Made by a program: the position numbers and the translations under genes. The notes under the pieces were generated by a model. It worked only from the letters and a program-made list of their open reading frames with translations. It did not search any database and was not told where the DNA came from. A stretch of 32,868 nucleotides of DNA from a virus, in IMG/VR virus record IMGVR_UViG_3300042520_002253, positions 1-32,868 of that record; one strand, given 5' to 3'. Positions 19,680 to 29,238 of the stretch are shown here, in pieces (position 1 is the stretch's first letter; each line of letters begins with the position of its first letter).

Positions 19680-20897
19680 ATGCAGTTTATTTCATTAAGA
19701 GACATTAGAAGTTTTTTTGGCGGTGCGAAAAACTATGATAAAACACCTTTATTTTATGGAGTGAATATACTTCTTAATGGAGGAAAAGGTGAAATACTTA
19801 ATCCGGAAAGTATAGATGCTTACGATGTTTATTCAACTACACCGCATTTAAAGGCTGTTATTTCTCGAAAAGGTGATTTACTTGCATCCGGTCAATGGAA
19901 GCATTACAAGATTATTCGCGGTGAAAAAATAGAAGTCGTAAATTCTGAAATAGTTGGTATTCTTGAAAATCCAAACGCTTTATTCAAAGGGAATGATTAT
20001 TTAAGATTGATCAATGAAAATATGTGCGTTTATGGTAATGTGTATAAATATGTTTTGCGCCCATTCAAAAAAAGTATTCCTGCATCTATAAATATTTTGC
20101 CTTCCAATGATATTGAAATAAAATCATTAGGAAAATGGTACAAGCAAAGTAAACTAAAAGATATTGTAAAAGAATATCGAATGATTTCGACAAACGATAC
20201 TTTACAAGTTGATGAAGTTGATCATACTTGGATTGTAAATTCTAAAAATCCGCTGCAAGGTGAAACTCCTTTGAAGGCTATTTATTTGCCTTTGTCTAAT
20301 TTGCGAATAGGAATGAAAACGCGAAATGTGTTGATGGCAAAACGCGGTGCAATTGGTATATTGTCAAACGATACAAAAGATGCTGTTGGTAATAAAGGGT
20401 TACCAAATGGAGAACGTGAAAAAATTGAAAAGGAATATCAAAAAAGTTACGGATTAGGTGACGACCAATCACAAATTATCATTTCAAATAATAATCTGAA
20501 ATGGCAGGCAATGGGTTTTCCAACCAAAGATTTGATGTTGTTTGAAGAAGATGAAAACGATTTTTGCCAATTATGTGATTGCTATGGAATAGCACGCGAT
20601 TTGTTTGCTTCTACAAAAGGTGCAACATTCGAAAATCAAAAGCAAGCATTGAAACAAACTTACCAAGGTACAATCATTCCAGAAGCAGAAGAAATTGCAA
20701 TGAATCACACATCAATTTTCAATCTTGATGGGGTGAATGAATGGTTGGAATTAGATTATTCGCATATTCCTGTACTTCAAGAAAATGAATTAGAAAAGTC
20801 ACAAACTTTGCAAAACAAATCAAATGCAATTAAGACTTTGAAAGATGCAGGGTATAGTGATCAACAAATTACATCTATTACTGGAGTTACACTTTGA
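19680..20897 (+). CDS. Phage portal protein (HK97 family), inverted relative to neighbours
   Basis: A 405-aa portal, the dodecameric ring through which DNA enters and leaves the head. Typical features of the HK97/PF04860-type portal are visible: HLKAVISRKGDLLASGQWK near the N-terminus, ENPNALFKGNDYLRLINENM with CVYGNVYKYVLRP, the clip/stem region ISTNDTLQVDEVDHTWIV with NPLQGETPLKAIY, and the C-terminal DLFASTKGATFENQKQAL. It is the only plus-strand gene. It lies between terminase and protease as usual, but its stop overlaps the terminase stop tail-to-tail by 11 bases. Base composition matches the neighbours. Confidence 0.92.
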   Translation: MQFISLRDIRSFFGGAKNYDKTPLFYGVNILLNGGKGEILNPESIDAYDVYSTTPHLKAVISRKGDLLASGQWKHYKIIRGEKIEVVNSEIVGILENPNALFKGNDYLRLINENMCVYGNVYKYVLRPFKKSIPASINILPSNDIEIKSLGKWYKQSKLKDIVKEYRMISTNDTLQVDEVDHTWIVNSKNPLQGETPLKAIYLPLSNLRIGMKTRNVLMAKRGAIGILSNDTKDAVGNKGLPNGEREKIEKEYQKSYGLGDDQSQIIISNNNLKWQAMGFPTKDLMLFEEDENDFCQLCDCYGIARDLFASTKGATFENQKQALKQTYQGTIIPEAEEIAMNHTSIFNLDGVNEWLELDYSHIPVLQENELEKSQTLQNKSNAIKTLKDAGYSDQQITSITGVTL

Positions 20898-25539: not shown

Positions 25540-26061
25540 TTAAAAAATATCAAGGTTTATATTCATTCCATTGTTTGCCACTTGGCAAAATCTTTGAACT
25601 TGTTGTTCTATTTCTTGTTTAAATTCTTTTTCGTTTGAATTGGAATCCGAAAGGTGAATCAAAATAACATTTTGCGTTTTACTCAAATCGTTTGCTTTCA
25701 AAGTTTCAATACAGTTTTCAAGGCTTAAATGTGATTTCAAAATCCTATCTTTCAGAAAGTGATTGATTCCATGTTTTTCAATCTTTTCTTCAATGATTTT
25801 CTTTGAATAGTTCGCTTCAATAATCCAGTGCTTAACATCTTTGAAAGTGTATTTGCAATAGTAAGAATCGGTAATAAAAACAATTTTTCCGCACTCTGGA
25901 TGCTCAATTAAAAAAGAATAACATTCAACATCGTGTTTAGCTTCGAATGGTAATACTTTAAAGCTTCCGATTTGATATGTTTTGTTTTTTTCGATTGTTG
26001 TAATTGGAGTGTAAACTGAATTATATTTTTCGGTTACTGATTGGCAGGTATAAATATTCAT
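25540..26061 (-). CDS. Metallo-beta-lactamase-fold protein, C-terminal part after an in-frame stop
   Basis: An ORF of 173 aa with its own ATG, which continues without frame change the MBL-fold gene that stops at 26104. The region 26103-26062 upstream of this ATG still encodes the expected family sequence (LDHSKYIHEFSKIG), so the original protein ran through. Remaining candidate metal-binding sites include KHDVECYS, ITDSYY, KSHLSLEN and IHLSDS. Alone it lacks the HxHxDH motif and is probably inactive. It may exist as the tail of a hop product (see the site at 26101-26109), as a separate protein, or as the end of a pseudogene. Confidence 0.75.
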   Translation of the reverse strand: MNIYTCQSVTEKYNSVYTPITTIEKNKTYQIGSFKVLPFEAKHDVECYSFLIEHPECGKIVFITDSYYCKYTFKDVKHWIIEANYSKKIIEEKIEKHGINHFLKDRILKSHLSLENCIETLKANDLSKTQNVILIHLSDSNSNEKEFKQEIEQQVQRFCQVANNGMNINLDIF

Positions 26062-26100
26062 TCCGATTTTTGAAAATTCGTGAATATATTTTGAGTGGTC

Positions 26101-26130
26101 AAGTTAAAGATGCTCGTGAGACACGAGCAT
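26101..26130 (-). other. Candidate translational hop site CTT-TAA-CTT with abutting hairpin
   Basis: In the MBL-fold gene the in-frame codons are CAT CTT TAA CTT GAC CAC (26112-26095). The stop lies between two identical Leu codons (CTT 26109-26107 and 26103-26101). If tRNA-Leu hops from the first CTT to the second, the protein reads HEHLDH, exactly the MBL metal-binding motif HxHxDH. A perfect 9-bp stem with a 3-base loop (ATGCTCGTG-TCT-CACGAGCAT, 26130-26110) ends next to the take-off codon. Hopping over CUU-stop-CUN sites is known from experiments in E. coli, and hairpins promote bypassing in T4 gene 60. Whether it happens here is untested. Confidence 0.5.
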
Positions 26131-26333: not shown

Positions 26334-27203
26334 TTAGAATCCTGCTTCTTCAAAAGATTTCGGTTCTTCAACCTCCTGCTTTACTTCCTCTTTTTCGGTT
26401 TCTTTCGGTTGTTCAGCAATTTCTTCAAAATCTATTACTTCTGCATTTGCATTGTGCGTAAATTCGCGCTTCAATTCATTTTCAGCGGTTGGAATAATTA
26501 CTTCCTGCTCTTCGTATAAAGCTGAATCATCACTTGCACCGATAACTGTTTTTAATGCTCGGTTAATGATTGTTTTTTTAACCATTTCACCGCGAAAGTT
26601 TTTATGTGCAGGGCTTCCACCTTTTGCATAACCTTGATTCCATGAAGTTTCAACCTGTTTGATATTCATTATTTCGGTTTTCACTCTTCCATCGTTGAAA
26701 ATCACTACTGCATAGCCACCAATAATATCTTGATCATTGATATTTTCAAGTTTTGTTTCGTGTTGGATTACTTCAAATATTCCAGTTTTCGGGTTTACAC
26801 CGATATTGAATAAATCTTCTTTGTAAACCACAACTGCGTTTACCTCTCTCACTCCTGCTGTACGTTTCGCGATTGCTACATTTCCAAGGTATGATTTTGA
26901 AATTTGTAGTTTATCTCCGTATGGTATGAAGTACACTTGGTTTTTCATTGGAGACAACCCCCACGTTACCATACTGAATAATGCGTTTGCAATGCTTGGT
27001 TTTGTGCAGCTTTCAAGAACTGATTTACCTGATTTGTCTTTTTGCTCTGAAAGAACAAGATACGCACTTTTCAGCGCGTTTTCCGGAGAATAATTACTTG
27101 GAATAGTTAATTCCCCATTTTCTTTGAAGACATTGATTTTGTCTAACACTTGAACAGTAATGTCTTTTTTCACTGTTTCCACATTTTTTGTTGTTTCACT
27201 CAT
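26334..27203 (-). CDS. recT: RecT-family ssDNA-annealing protein
   Basis: A 289-aa recombinase that anneals complementary single strands. Typical RecT features: SIANALFSMVTWGLSPMKNQ, VYFIPYGDKLQISKSYLGNV, AIAKRTAGVREVNAVVVYKE, then GGYAVVIF, RVKTEIMNIKQV and the FRGEMVKKTIINRALK block. The C-terminal about 40 residues are Glu-rich and ordered loosely, often a site for SSB contact. It is preceded by the Rad50-like ATPase and followed by the MBL-fold gene and the SSB-like gene, a recombination module for replication by annealing. Confidence 0.93.
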   Translation of the reverse strand: MSETTKNVETVKKDITVQVLDKINVFKENGELTIPSNYSPENALKSAYLVLSEQKDKSGKSVLESCTKPSIANALFSMVTWGLSPMKNQVYFIPYGDKLQISKSYLGNVAIAKRTAGVREVNAVVVYKEDLFNIGVNPKTGIFEVIQHETKLENINDQDIIGGYAVVIFNDGRVKTEIMNIKQVETSWNQGYAKGGSPAHKNFRGEMVKKTIINRALKTVIGASDDSALYEEQEVIIPTAENELKREFTHNANAEVIDFEEIAEQPKETEKEEVKQEVEEPKSFEEAGF

Positions 27204-27243: not shown

Positions 27244-29238
27244 CTATTTGATAGTCAAAATTTCACATTCTGAATCTACGACTAAGTTAACTATTTGTTT
27301 CGTATTTTCCAAGATATTTGTAACGCTTTCTCTATTATCTATGAATATTGGCACTTGCGTTTCATAAAATTTAGATAGTGCTTTTATTACATCAATTCCT
27401 GCGTTTACTTTTGTCGCTGTGTTTAATGAAGAGAAAGGTACTCCATTCACCAGGGCTTCGCAGGTTTCTGATATCCCTCCGTTTAATTGGTTTTCAAACA
27501 TTTTGAATTTTACTATTTCAAAGTTTTGGTTTACTCGCTTTTCTATTAAATCAATTTTTGAGTTGTTGAATTTATCAATTGCCATTTCTACCTTTTCAAG
27601 GTTTGCGATTTCTTGACTTAAATTTGTAAATTGCTCTCTCAATTCAGCAAGTCTTTTGTTTTGCGATTCAATTACTTTGCGATCGTAAAGTTTTTCCTCC
27701 AAAGTTTTTATTTCATCCAGTAAAGTTTGTTTATCGTTTTTAAATTGCGTTGTATCAACTTCTTTTATCTCTGGAATAACAATGCTTTCAACTTCTTTTT
27801 GAAGTGCTTTTATCTCATCTGTCAAAGGTATTTCAACATCAATAAGGCTTAGTAGTGTATCTTCAACCGCTTTGAGTTCTTGGTTTTCAATATTGATTTT
27901 TTGTTGTGTTGATTCAACATCTAATTGTGCAGCATCTATTTTTGATCCAAGTAAAATATTTTCTTGCTTTAAAGCTTCAATCAATTCATTATTGGATTTT
28001 CCTTTCGCTCTGATTTCGTTTAGTATATTCGTTTTATTGTCCGTAAAGCGTTGAAGTAATTCTGCTCTTTTACTTTCAATATCTTCTATTGGCAATCCTT
28101 GTTTACAAGTAGGACAAACACACGATTCTAAATCAAAATCAAATTCTCTTGTATTTTCAGCTGTGAAAAGATTTCTTAAATTGTCGTTTGTTTTATTGAT
28201 TTCAATTTGTTTACTTTCATTGATTTCAACATCTTTTTTGGTATTGAAAACTATTTGTTTTGCCTTTGTTAGTTTGTCGTTTAGTAGGTACAAAGAGTGC
28301 TTCAAATCCTGCTCTTTCACTTTAAGTTCCGATTGGCTTTTTTTAGCTTCTGCGTTTAATTCAATAATCAATTGTTGAATCTTTTGCTCTTTCTGAAACT
28401 TATCCGTTTTGATTTGTTGAATTGCTTTTATTTGCTCGTCAGTGCCTTTTGTGGCATTTTCAATAAGTGAATCAAACTTTTGAATATCCTTTTTTAAAGA
28501 ATCAATTTTGCTTTCGATTTCCAACCAATTCTGCTCTTGTGGAATAGATCTACTTGCTTCGTCTATTCGTGCAGGTAGTTGATCCAATTCAGCCTTTAAA
28601 TTTTTGCGCTTTACAGCATATTCTTTTTTGATGTCCTCAAAAGATTTGTTTGAGTTAAGAATGTCTTTCAATCTTTCGTTTGTTTGATTGTCAACTATTG
28701 AAAAAACATCTTCATCACTTATTTCACCTGCTAATTCTGAAAGAACTAATCTTCGTTTTTTCCAGTCTAAAATTTGATTGAAGTACAAAGTGTTTGACAA
28801 CATTCTAAATTCTTCTTCATTGCAAATGGAATCAATTCTTGTTTTATATTCTGAAAGTGAAGCAGGAACATCGTTGATAAAGTATTCAGTTGTGTGACCG
28901 GTCAATTCACTTGTTTCAGAACCTCGTTTTTTAGTCCATTTTTCAAAGTAGGAAACTTTTAATTTTACCTCTTCGCTATCAATGTCAAATAAACCAATTA
29001 CTTCGTGTTTAAGGTTGTGAAGTGGATTGTTTGAAGAATCCAATGTTTTGATTTCGAATTGCTTTTCGTTTTGGCTGTTTTTTCCGTACAATAGGAATGT
29101 AAAAGCATCAAACACTGTTGTTTTTCCTGATCCATTTTTACCATGGATGAAAGTTTCTTTTTGTGTAAAATCTAATTTTAAAAATTTCACTCCTTTGAAG
29201 TTCACTAATTCCAAAGATTTTAAGTTCACATTTTTCAT
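27244..29238 (-). CDS. Rad50/SbcC-like AAA ATPase with zinc hook
   Basis: A 664-aa SMC-like protein. Residues 33-41 (GKNGSGKTT) are the Walker A loop. Two long coiled coils (about 190-365 and 380-590) flank a zinc-hook motif CVCPTC near 372-378. The C-terminal half has an ABC signature-like SSLNTATKVNAGIDVIKALS near 605-624 and a Walker B strand VPIFIDNRE near 629. The order N-ATPase, coil, hook, coil, C-ATPase matches Rad50/SbcC in a shortened form. No SbcD/Mre11 phosphoesterase gene was seen, so the MBL-fold protein is a candidate nuclease partner. Confidence 0.9.
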   Translation of the reverse strand: MKNVNLKSLELVNFKGVKFLKLDFTQKETFIHGKNGSGKTTVFDAFTFLLYGKNSQNEKQFEIKTLDSSNNPLHNLKHEVIGLFDIDSEEVKLKVSYFEKWTKKRGSETSELTGHTTEYFINDVPASLSEYKTRIDSICNEEEFRMLSNTLYFNQILDWKKRRLVLSELAGEISDEDVFSIVDNQTNERLKDILNSNKSFEDIKKEYAVKRKNLKAELDQLPARIDEASRSIPQEQNWLEIESKIDSLKKDIQKFDSLIENATKGTDEQIKAIQQIKTDKFQKEQKIQQLIIELNAEAKKSQSELKVKEQDLKHSLYLLNDKLTKAKQIVFNTKKDVEINESKQIEINKTNDNLRNLFTAENTREFDFDLESCVCPTCKQGLPIEDIESKRAELLQRFTDNKTNILNEIRAKGKSNNELIEALKQENILLGSKIDAAQLDVESTQQKINIENQELKAVEDTLLSLIDVEIPLTDEIKALQKEVESIVIPEIKEVDTTQFKNDKQTLLDEIKTLEEKLYDRKVIESQNKRLAELREQFTNLSQEIANLEKVEMAIDKFNNSKIDLIEKRVNQNFEIVKFKMFENQLNGGISETCEALVNGVPFSSLNTATKVNAGIDVIKALSKFYETQVPIFIDNRESVTNILENTKQIVNLVVDSECEILTIK

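Follow-up and report, generated by a model that had tools for sequence, protein, structure and literature searches.

How, if at all, is a phage gene decoded into a single protein when a stop codon splits its catalytic motif? This question is raised by a virus sequence of 32,868 nucleotides (IMG/VR virus record IMGVR_UViG_3300042520_002253, positions 1 to 32,868; hereafter, the window, that is, the whole stretch of DNA analyzed). Its minus strand carries a single gene of the metallo-β-lactamase (MBL) fold, which extends from ATG 26277-26275 to TAA 25542-25540, with the sole in-frame break at TAA 26106-26104. The order at the site is HEHL-TAA-LDH, encoded by CTT TAA CTT followed by GAC CAC, and when the gene is read through the TAA, the product (P0001) matches phrog_392 over residues 5-251 (E=6e-70). 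A first-pass annotation, made from the letters alone, had described two MBL halves in the same frame, a TAA between two CTT codons, restoration of HEHLDH upon skipping, and a hairpin at the site; all these statements hold.

We propose, with a probability of roughly 85% and on wholly comparative grounds, that full decoding of this gene relies on programmed short translational bypassing, a natural and recurrent “stop-hop.” Having made HEHL, the ribosome would carry its peptidyl-tRNA-Leu on CUU while UAA occupies the A site; the tRNA would then release, the mRNA would slide by 6 nt, and the tRNA would re-pair with the second CUU, so that translation would continue at GAC. Nine nucleotides would thereby encode a single Leu and leave the HEHLDH site in its canonical form. 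In the window phage and its putatively Bacteroidota-type relatives (a label that reflects kinship to Cellulophaga phages), the forward slide is probably powered by zippering of a hairpin directly behind the take-off codon. Other phages would perform the same hop with Gln (CAG UGA CAA) or with Gly (GGU UAA GGU or, in a +5 version, GGU UA GGC), in the case of Gly without the hairpin. The sequences directly show the anatomy of the site, its recurrence, and selection acting on both halves of the gene and on the hairpin; from these, we infer the hop itself, the order of its steps, and the mechanical role of the hairpin. The minimal natural bypass element suggested by the first-pass annotation, CTT-stop-CTT with an upstream hairpin, is strongly supported by comparisons: the break recurs at a single codon, take-off and landing codons match, gaps of both +6 and +5 occur, the sequence past the stop is under selection, and synonymous sites of the hairpin are constrained.

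Table 1. Features of the interrupted MBL gene and its neighbors in the window
Feature	Coordinates	Strand	Support
ORF1 (open reading frame 1), N-terminal MBL part, MKLIVVG...LVSHEHL, stops at TAA	26104..26277	-	starts of relatives agree with ATG 26277-26275
5' hairpin ATGCTCGTG-TCT-CACGAGCAT, 9 perfect bp, 3-nt loop, 3' end abuts the take-off codon	26110..26130	-	folding, synonymous recoding
Putative take-off codon CTT (Leu)	26107..26109	-	
Stop codon TAA, predicted in the A site at take-off	26104..26106	-	
Putative landing codon CTT, same as the take-off codon	26101..26103	-	
GAC CAC, Asp-His that would complete HxHxDH after the hop	26095..26100	-	invariant in 46 uninterrupted relatives
ORF2, C-terminal MBL part, predicted to be read after landing	25540..26103	-	dN/dS 0.074 vs L005
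RecT ssDNA-annealing protein, upstream neighbor	26334..27203	-	context
SbcC-like ATPase	27244..29238	-	context

Among the nearest IMG/VR relatives, L002 (the same as L005; 84% identity) shares the CTT TAA CTT site, and L003 (81%) has a plain HEHLDH. The shared site implies that the six bases are not a sequencing error, and the presence of this site in isolates and in many independent data sets rules out sequencing or assembly errors altogether. An alternative genetic code is ruled out by the other genes of the window, which under table 11 lie end to end and terminate at ordinary stops, and a +1 shift at CUU U was rejected given that the reading would end after ~16 codons. No tRNA gene was found in the window, and a suppressor tRNA was rejected on that account.

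The break is not a random lesion: we identified 27 distinct interrupted members of the family, all broken at the same codon, between HxHx and DH. They come from contigs of IMG/VR, from genomes of isolates (Lachnotalea), and from the cultured Cellulophaga phages phi18:3 and phi46:3. When viral contigs were scanned for HEH-x-TAA-x-DH, 20 stretches emerged: 6 are MBL genes with open frames flanking the stop, and the rest are plainly not MBL; scans for the TGA and HGH variants of the pattern added further interrupted MBL genes. Three family loci without a motif match carry GGT TAG GC immediately followed by GAT CAC, with the halves in different frames, and a scan for this form gave eight matches, all eight in MBL genes. 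Later additions are L206 (Lachnospiraceae genomes), L215 (an unannotated human gut phage), and L230 (from the final scan). In the Cellulophaga baltica phages phi18:3 and phi46:3, the site is CAA TGA CAG and the gene is annotated as two; phages phi13:2 and phi19:3 are uninterrupted. By the TAA pattern, a scan of genomes from 85,000 species detected a single MBL case, an isolate of Lachnotalea glycerini; 397 Flavobacteriaceae genomes contained 4 intact genes, and 397 Lachnospiraceae genomes gave 5 matches, 3 of them interrupted. A set of 80 family loci comprised 70 intact genes and 10 interrupted ones, and each of the latter is broken at this codon and nowhere else in the gene, which is beyond chance; the query alignment behind this set included interrupted genes, so that 10 of 80 is not an unbiased prevalence, and the concentration on one codon, which is unaffected by this bias, does not look like gene decay. 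Pattern matches outside MBL genes (e.g., L043, L046, and L148) were dismissed as chance, with no MBL sequence in the surroundings. The apparent split MBL gene of Staphylococcus phage StB27 (L218) was set aside as unrelated: it differs by 1 nt from its StB20-like counterpart, and the truncation, located upstream of the motif, is a plain frameshift or an error.

The codons at the break follow a narrow set of rules. The stop lies immediately 3' of the take-off codon in 27 of the 27 genes, with all three stops used, and the gap is 6 nt in 18 genes and 5 nt in the remaining 9. In 25 of the 27, the codon preceding Asp-His encodes the amino acid of the take-off codon (CTT/CTT in the window), so that a +6 or +5 hop would restore HxHxDH. 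The Leu class comprises CTT TAA CTT, CTT TGA CTA/CTT, and CTC TGA CTT; the Gln class, CAG TGA CAA and CAA TGA CAG; and the Gly class, GGT TAA GGT/GGC/GGA (AGT once), GGT TA GGC/GGA, and, once, GGT TG AGC. Take-off is thus limited to CUY, CAR, and GGU: the Gly take-off codon is always GGT, compared to 5 of 25 in intact relatives, and Lys, which is frequent at this position in intact genes (21 of 70), is absent among the interrupted ones. A weak P-site wobble pair is a plausible reason for this restriction. The 5-nt class lands on GGC/GGA, with the first G of the landing codon being the G of UAG, and therefore only a +5 hop would restore the frame as well as the spacing of H-x-H-x-D-H; the two together are not predicted to result from readthrough or from a simple -1/+2 shift. 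A -1 shift was, in addition, rejected for this class because there is no slippery heptamer and two extra residues would be placed in the motif.

The same features bear on stop-codon readthrough, whereby a tRNA would decode the stop to give HEHL-X-LDH, longer by two residues. Viruses commonly use readthrough, and the 6-nt class does remain in frame, but the halves of the 9 members with a 5-nt gap are in different frames, and none of the 70 intact loci has an insertion within H-x-H-x-D-H, the residues of which are metal ligands. Moreover, under readthrough there would be no need for the take-off and landing codons to match, for take-off to be confined to certain codons, or for the stop to be UAA, which is generally the tightest, and there is no tRNA gene in the window to serve it. 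We consider this mechanism highly unlikely.

Between pairs in which both genes are interrupted, the ratio of nonsynonymous to synonymous substitution rates (dN/dS) after the gap is 0.07 (window-L005), 0.08-0.15 (L176 group), 0.09 (L192-L196, a pair with the frame-changing gap), and 0.20 (L011-L013), and the initial post-gap codons (DHSKY...) are likewise conserved. These values indicate that the full-length protein is under purifying selection. In a rival reading, ORF2 would be re-initiated at an internal start, its product pairing with the ORF1 peptide; the records of the Cellulophaga phages indeed annotate two ORFs, and in the window, an ATG follows the landing codon at a distance of 14 codons. 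However, L183, L009, L192, and L196 lack an ATG for 64-72 codons after the gap, and therefore re-initiation at an ATG cannot make the conserved stretch. Besides, DH and the next helix are conserved although they would go untranslated, and the second piece would be devoid of metal ligands, which makes a two-protein solution extremely improbable.

Selection is apparent also on the RNA upstream of the stop. The window hairpin is far more stable than expected by chance: its fold scores z -3.6 relative to sequences shuffled with dinucleotide content preserved, and z -5.7 relative to synonymous recodings drawn from the codon usage of the window itself, where 1 of 1000 recoded sequences was equally stable. 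Altogether, ten Bacteroidota-type genes have a hairpin with the 3' end touching the take-off codon (the window, L005, L183, L173, five of the L176 group, and phi18:3), with z from -4.4 to -9.8 against synonymous recoding and at most 1 of 1000 equally stable. In the L176 cluster, synonymous changes affect 10 of 118 in the last 18 codons before take-off, vs 75 of 213 upstream and 178 of 531 downstream (rates of 0.08 near take-off vs 0.33-0.35 elsewhere); between the window and L005, the last 18 codons show 0 of 9, vs ~0.6 elsewhere. The suppression of synonymous change in the L176 cluster and the window extends beyond the 7-codon hairpin, hinting at further RNA or peptide signals. Covariation across relatives amounts to one compensatory change from A-U to G-C and one U-G, which is too few for significance alone. 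For a possible stem-loop of the T4 gene 60 kind, with the take-off codon and the stop inside it, the window shows a weak excess over synonymous recoding (z -3.2), but the folded stretch includes part of the upstream hairpin. The uninterrupted phage phi19:3 retains a strong hairpin, which fits either a recent loss of the insert or an origin of the hairpin before it.

In a tree of 102 proteins, the interrupted state requires at least 8 changes (gains or losses), and intact and interrupted alleles alternate among very close relatives. L005 and L003 are ~95% identical over 3.2 kb, with a single dip to 0.62 that runs from the insertion to ~+110 nt, and L060 (phi18:3) compared to L063 (phi19:3) shows the same dip, starting exactly at the insertion and spanning ~75 nt. 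These diverged tracts of 75-110 nt look as if a break at the motif had been repaired from another allele. Furthermore, L112, which is nested among the interrupted L094 and L095, is uninterrupted, with an unusual Val in the x position (CAC GTA GAT CAT), possibly due to a recent loss of the insert.

Both the alternation of alleles among close relatives and the tracts in two independent pairs, as after a break or homing, are what one could expect of an inactivated gene, that is, of a recurring insertion scar (left, for example, by error-prone repair or a mobile element) in a gene that no longer gives a full-length protein. The first-pass annotation had entertained a version of this possibility, a 6-bp insertion that broke the gene, which we reject: dN/dS after the stop is 0.07-0.2 between diverged interrupted genes, interruptions are confined to one codon, with no other among the 80 loci, and the hairpin and its codons are maintained by selection. 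Inactivation is accordingly very improbable. A non-exclusive variant of the stop-hop concerns its purpose: the hop would be real but would only neutralize a mobile insertion of selfish or neutral origin, as in T4 gene 60 (MobA) or the byps of yeast mitochondria, rather than serve regulation of the enzyme. The dips beside the insertion and the multiple gains or losses are compatible with this origin, and the insert of T4 gene 60 has been discussed as possible protection against a homing nuclease (Atkins et al. 2016, PMC5009743). Conversely, the 6-nt element encodes no gene, and no homing endonuclease is annotated in phi18:3 or was found among the neighbors scanned, which are only part of all neighbors. 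We give this variant somewhat less than an even chance; the conversion-like tracts hint at a homing-like spread of the element.

Several observations weigh against the stop-hop. The insert is missing from some very close relatives (L003, L063, and L112), and therefore the element is dispensable. Relatives with a plain HEHxDH, which the first-pass annotation had named as grounds for giving up the idea, are thus real, but they do not refute it, given that many lineages carry the interrupted allele anew. The landing codon is mismatched in position 1 in two members, L009 (GGT/AGT) and L206 (GGT/AGC), so strict codon matching may not be required. Finally, neither the Gly take-off class nor the Leu-class genes L147, L215, and L230 have such a hairpin by the synonymous-recoding test or in the last scan. 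The lack of the hairpin in the Gly class rules it out as a feature of the whole family and suggests two mechanistic classes, a Bacteroidota-type one with the hairpin and one with Gly take-off without it.

The enzyme itself is predicted to be RNase Z/class II phosphodiesterase-like. The first-pass annotation had called it a nuclease; what sequence and structure modeling support is the level of the fold, namely, an MBL fold of the RNase Z/YhfI/PhnP/Apyc1 type. In 46 uninterrupted relatives, the metal ligands H53, H55, D57, H58, D134, and H205 are invariant, and H112 is nearly so. The AlphaFold2 model of L003 (pLDDT 95) has BA1088, YhfI, RNase Z, Apyc1, and PhnP as the nearest solved folds (TM 0.72-0.74 for YhfI and 0.61-0.62 for Apyc1). 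Apyc1 (a phage anti-Pycsar nuclease, characterized by cleavage of cCMP/cUMP), YhfI, and RNase Z share with the phage enzyme the MBL fold, HxHxDH, and further ligands, but sequence similarity to Apyc1 is confined to the motif region (profile match over residues 13-66 only, E about 1e-5), and the phage gene adjoins recT; the name Apyc1 should not be applied on present evidence. Phages of Bacteroidota, Bacillota, and Marinitoga have the MBL gene immediately after recT (the window, L060, L217, and phages of Bacillus and Staphylococcus are examples), and this adjacency suggests a shared role in the recombination module. Elsewhere in the window, the portal gene (Pfam Phage_portal, 19680-20897) is on the plus strand, with the neighboring terminase and nearly all other long genes on the minus strand.

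Bypassing could possibly control the dose of the enzyme. More broadly, and as a tentative proposal that we would not put at even odds, this could be the first family of natural stop-hops: a mobile or repeatedly evolved 5-6-nt element, hairpin-driven in some phages and hairpin-free in others, lodged in a catalytic motif such that every active molecule would depend on the hop, possibly a sensor of dose or of host translation, and spread by homing-like conversion. If the recurrent natural stop-hop is real, the minimal requirements for ribosome hopping become directly testable (+5 vs +6, with and without the hairpin), with cultured carriers, phi18:3 and phi46:3, and their near-identical insert-free sisters, phi19:3 and phi13:2, at hand. 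There is also a practical corollary, namely, that gene finders split such genes.

In the open-access literature, we found no published description of a stop-hop in the phage MBL family. Atkins et al. (2016, PMC5009743) considered natural in-frame stop-hopping possible, with no occurrences known, and listed the terminase of Streptomyces phage Hau3 and a Prevotella adhesin as further bypass candidates; a 2024 paper, in its introduction, limits natural bypassing to T4 gene 60 and yeast mitochondria (PMC11194080). T4 gene 60 is the obvious point of reference: its 5' stem-loop upstream of the take-off site has a counterpart in the window and nine relatives, but not in the Gly class, and is proposed to drive the forward slide, providing a model for the phage MBL hairpin. 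Unlike the gene 60 stem-loop, however, the MBL hairpin directly abuts the take-off codon; the gene is different; and the gap is 5-6 nt, compared to 50 nt. No KKYK nascent-peptide signal (located 25-30 residues upstream in gene 60) was detected in the ORF1 peptides, and no Shine-Dalgarno-like landing aid was found at the MBL site. For T4 gene 60/MobA, co-conversion of a homing site has been proposed, and the tracts beside the MBL insert resemble it. The byps of Magnusiomyces mitochondria are short inserts that bypassing renders harmless, as it would the phage MBL inserts, and they share the patchy distribution of the latter, but they are mitochondrial, occupy many sites, and are context-independent, whereas the phage element is restricted to one codon of one gene family in bacterial hosts. 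Programmed frameshifting in prfB at CUU UGA C likewise pairs a weak CUU codon in the P site with an A-site stop, but proceeds by +1 to an overlapping codon, whereas re-pairing in the MBL genes would occur at a non-overlapping one. The closest parallel is artificial: synthetic genes in Escherichia coli gave stop-hops and hops of +5 and +6 between matched codons (Weiss et al. 1987, as cited in PMC5009743, ref. 54), the two distances found in the phage MBL genes. Those were reporters, whereas the phage MBL element is natural, conserved, and present in many phages, with a selected upstream hairpin in one of its classes.
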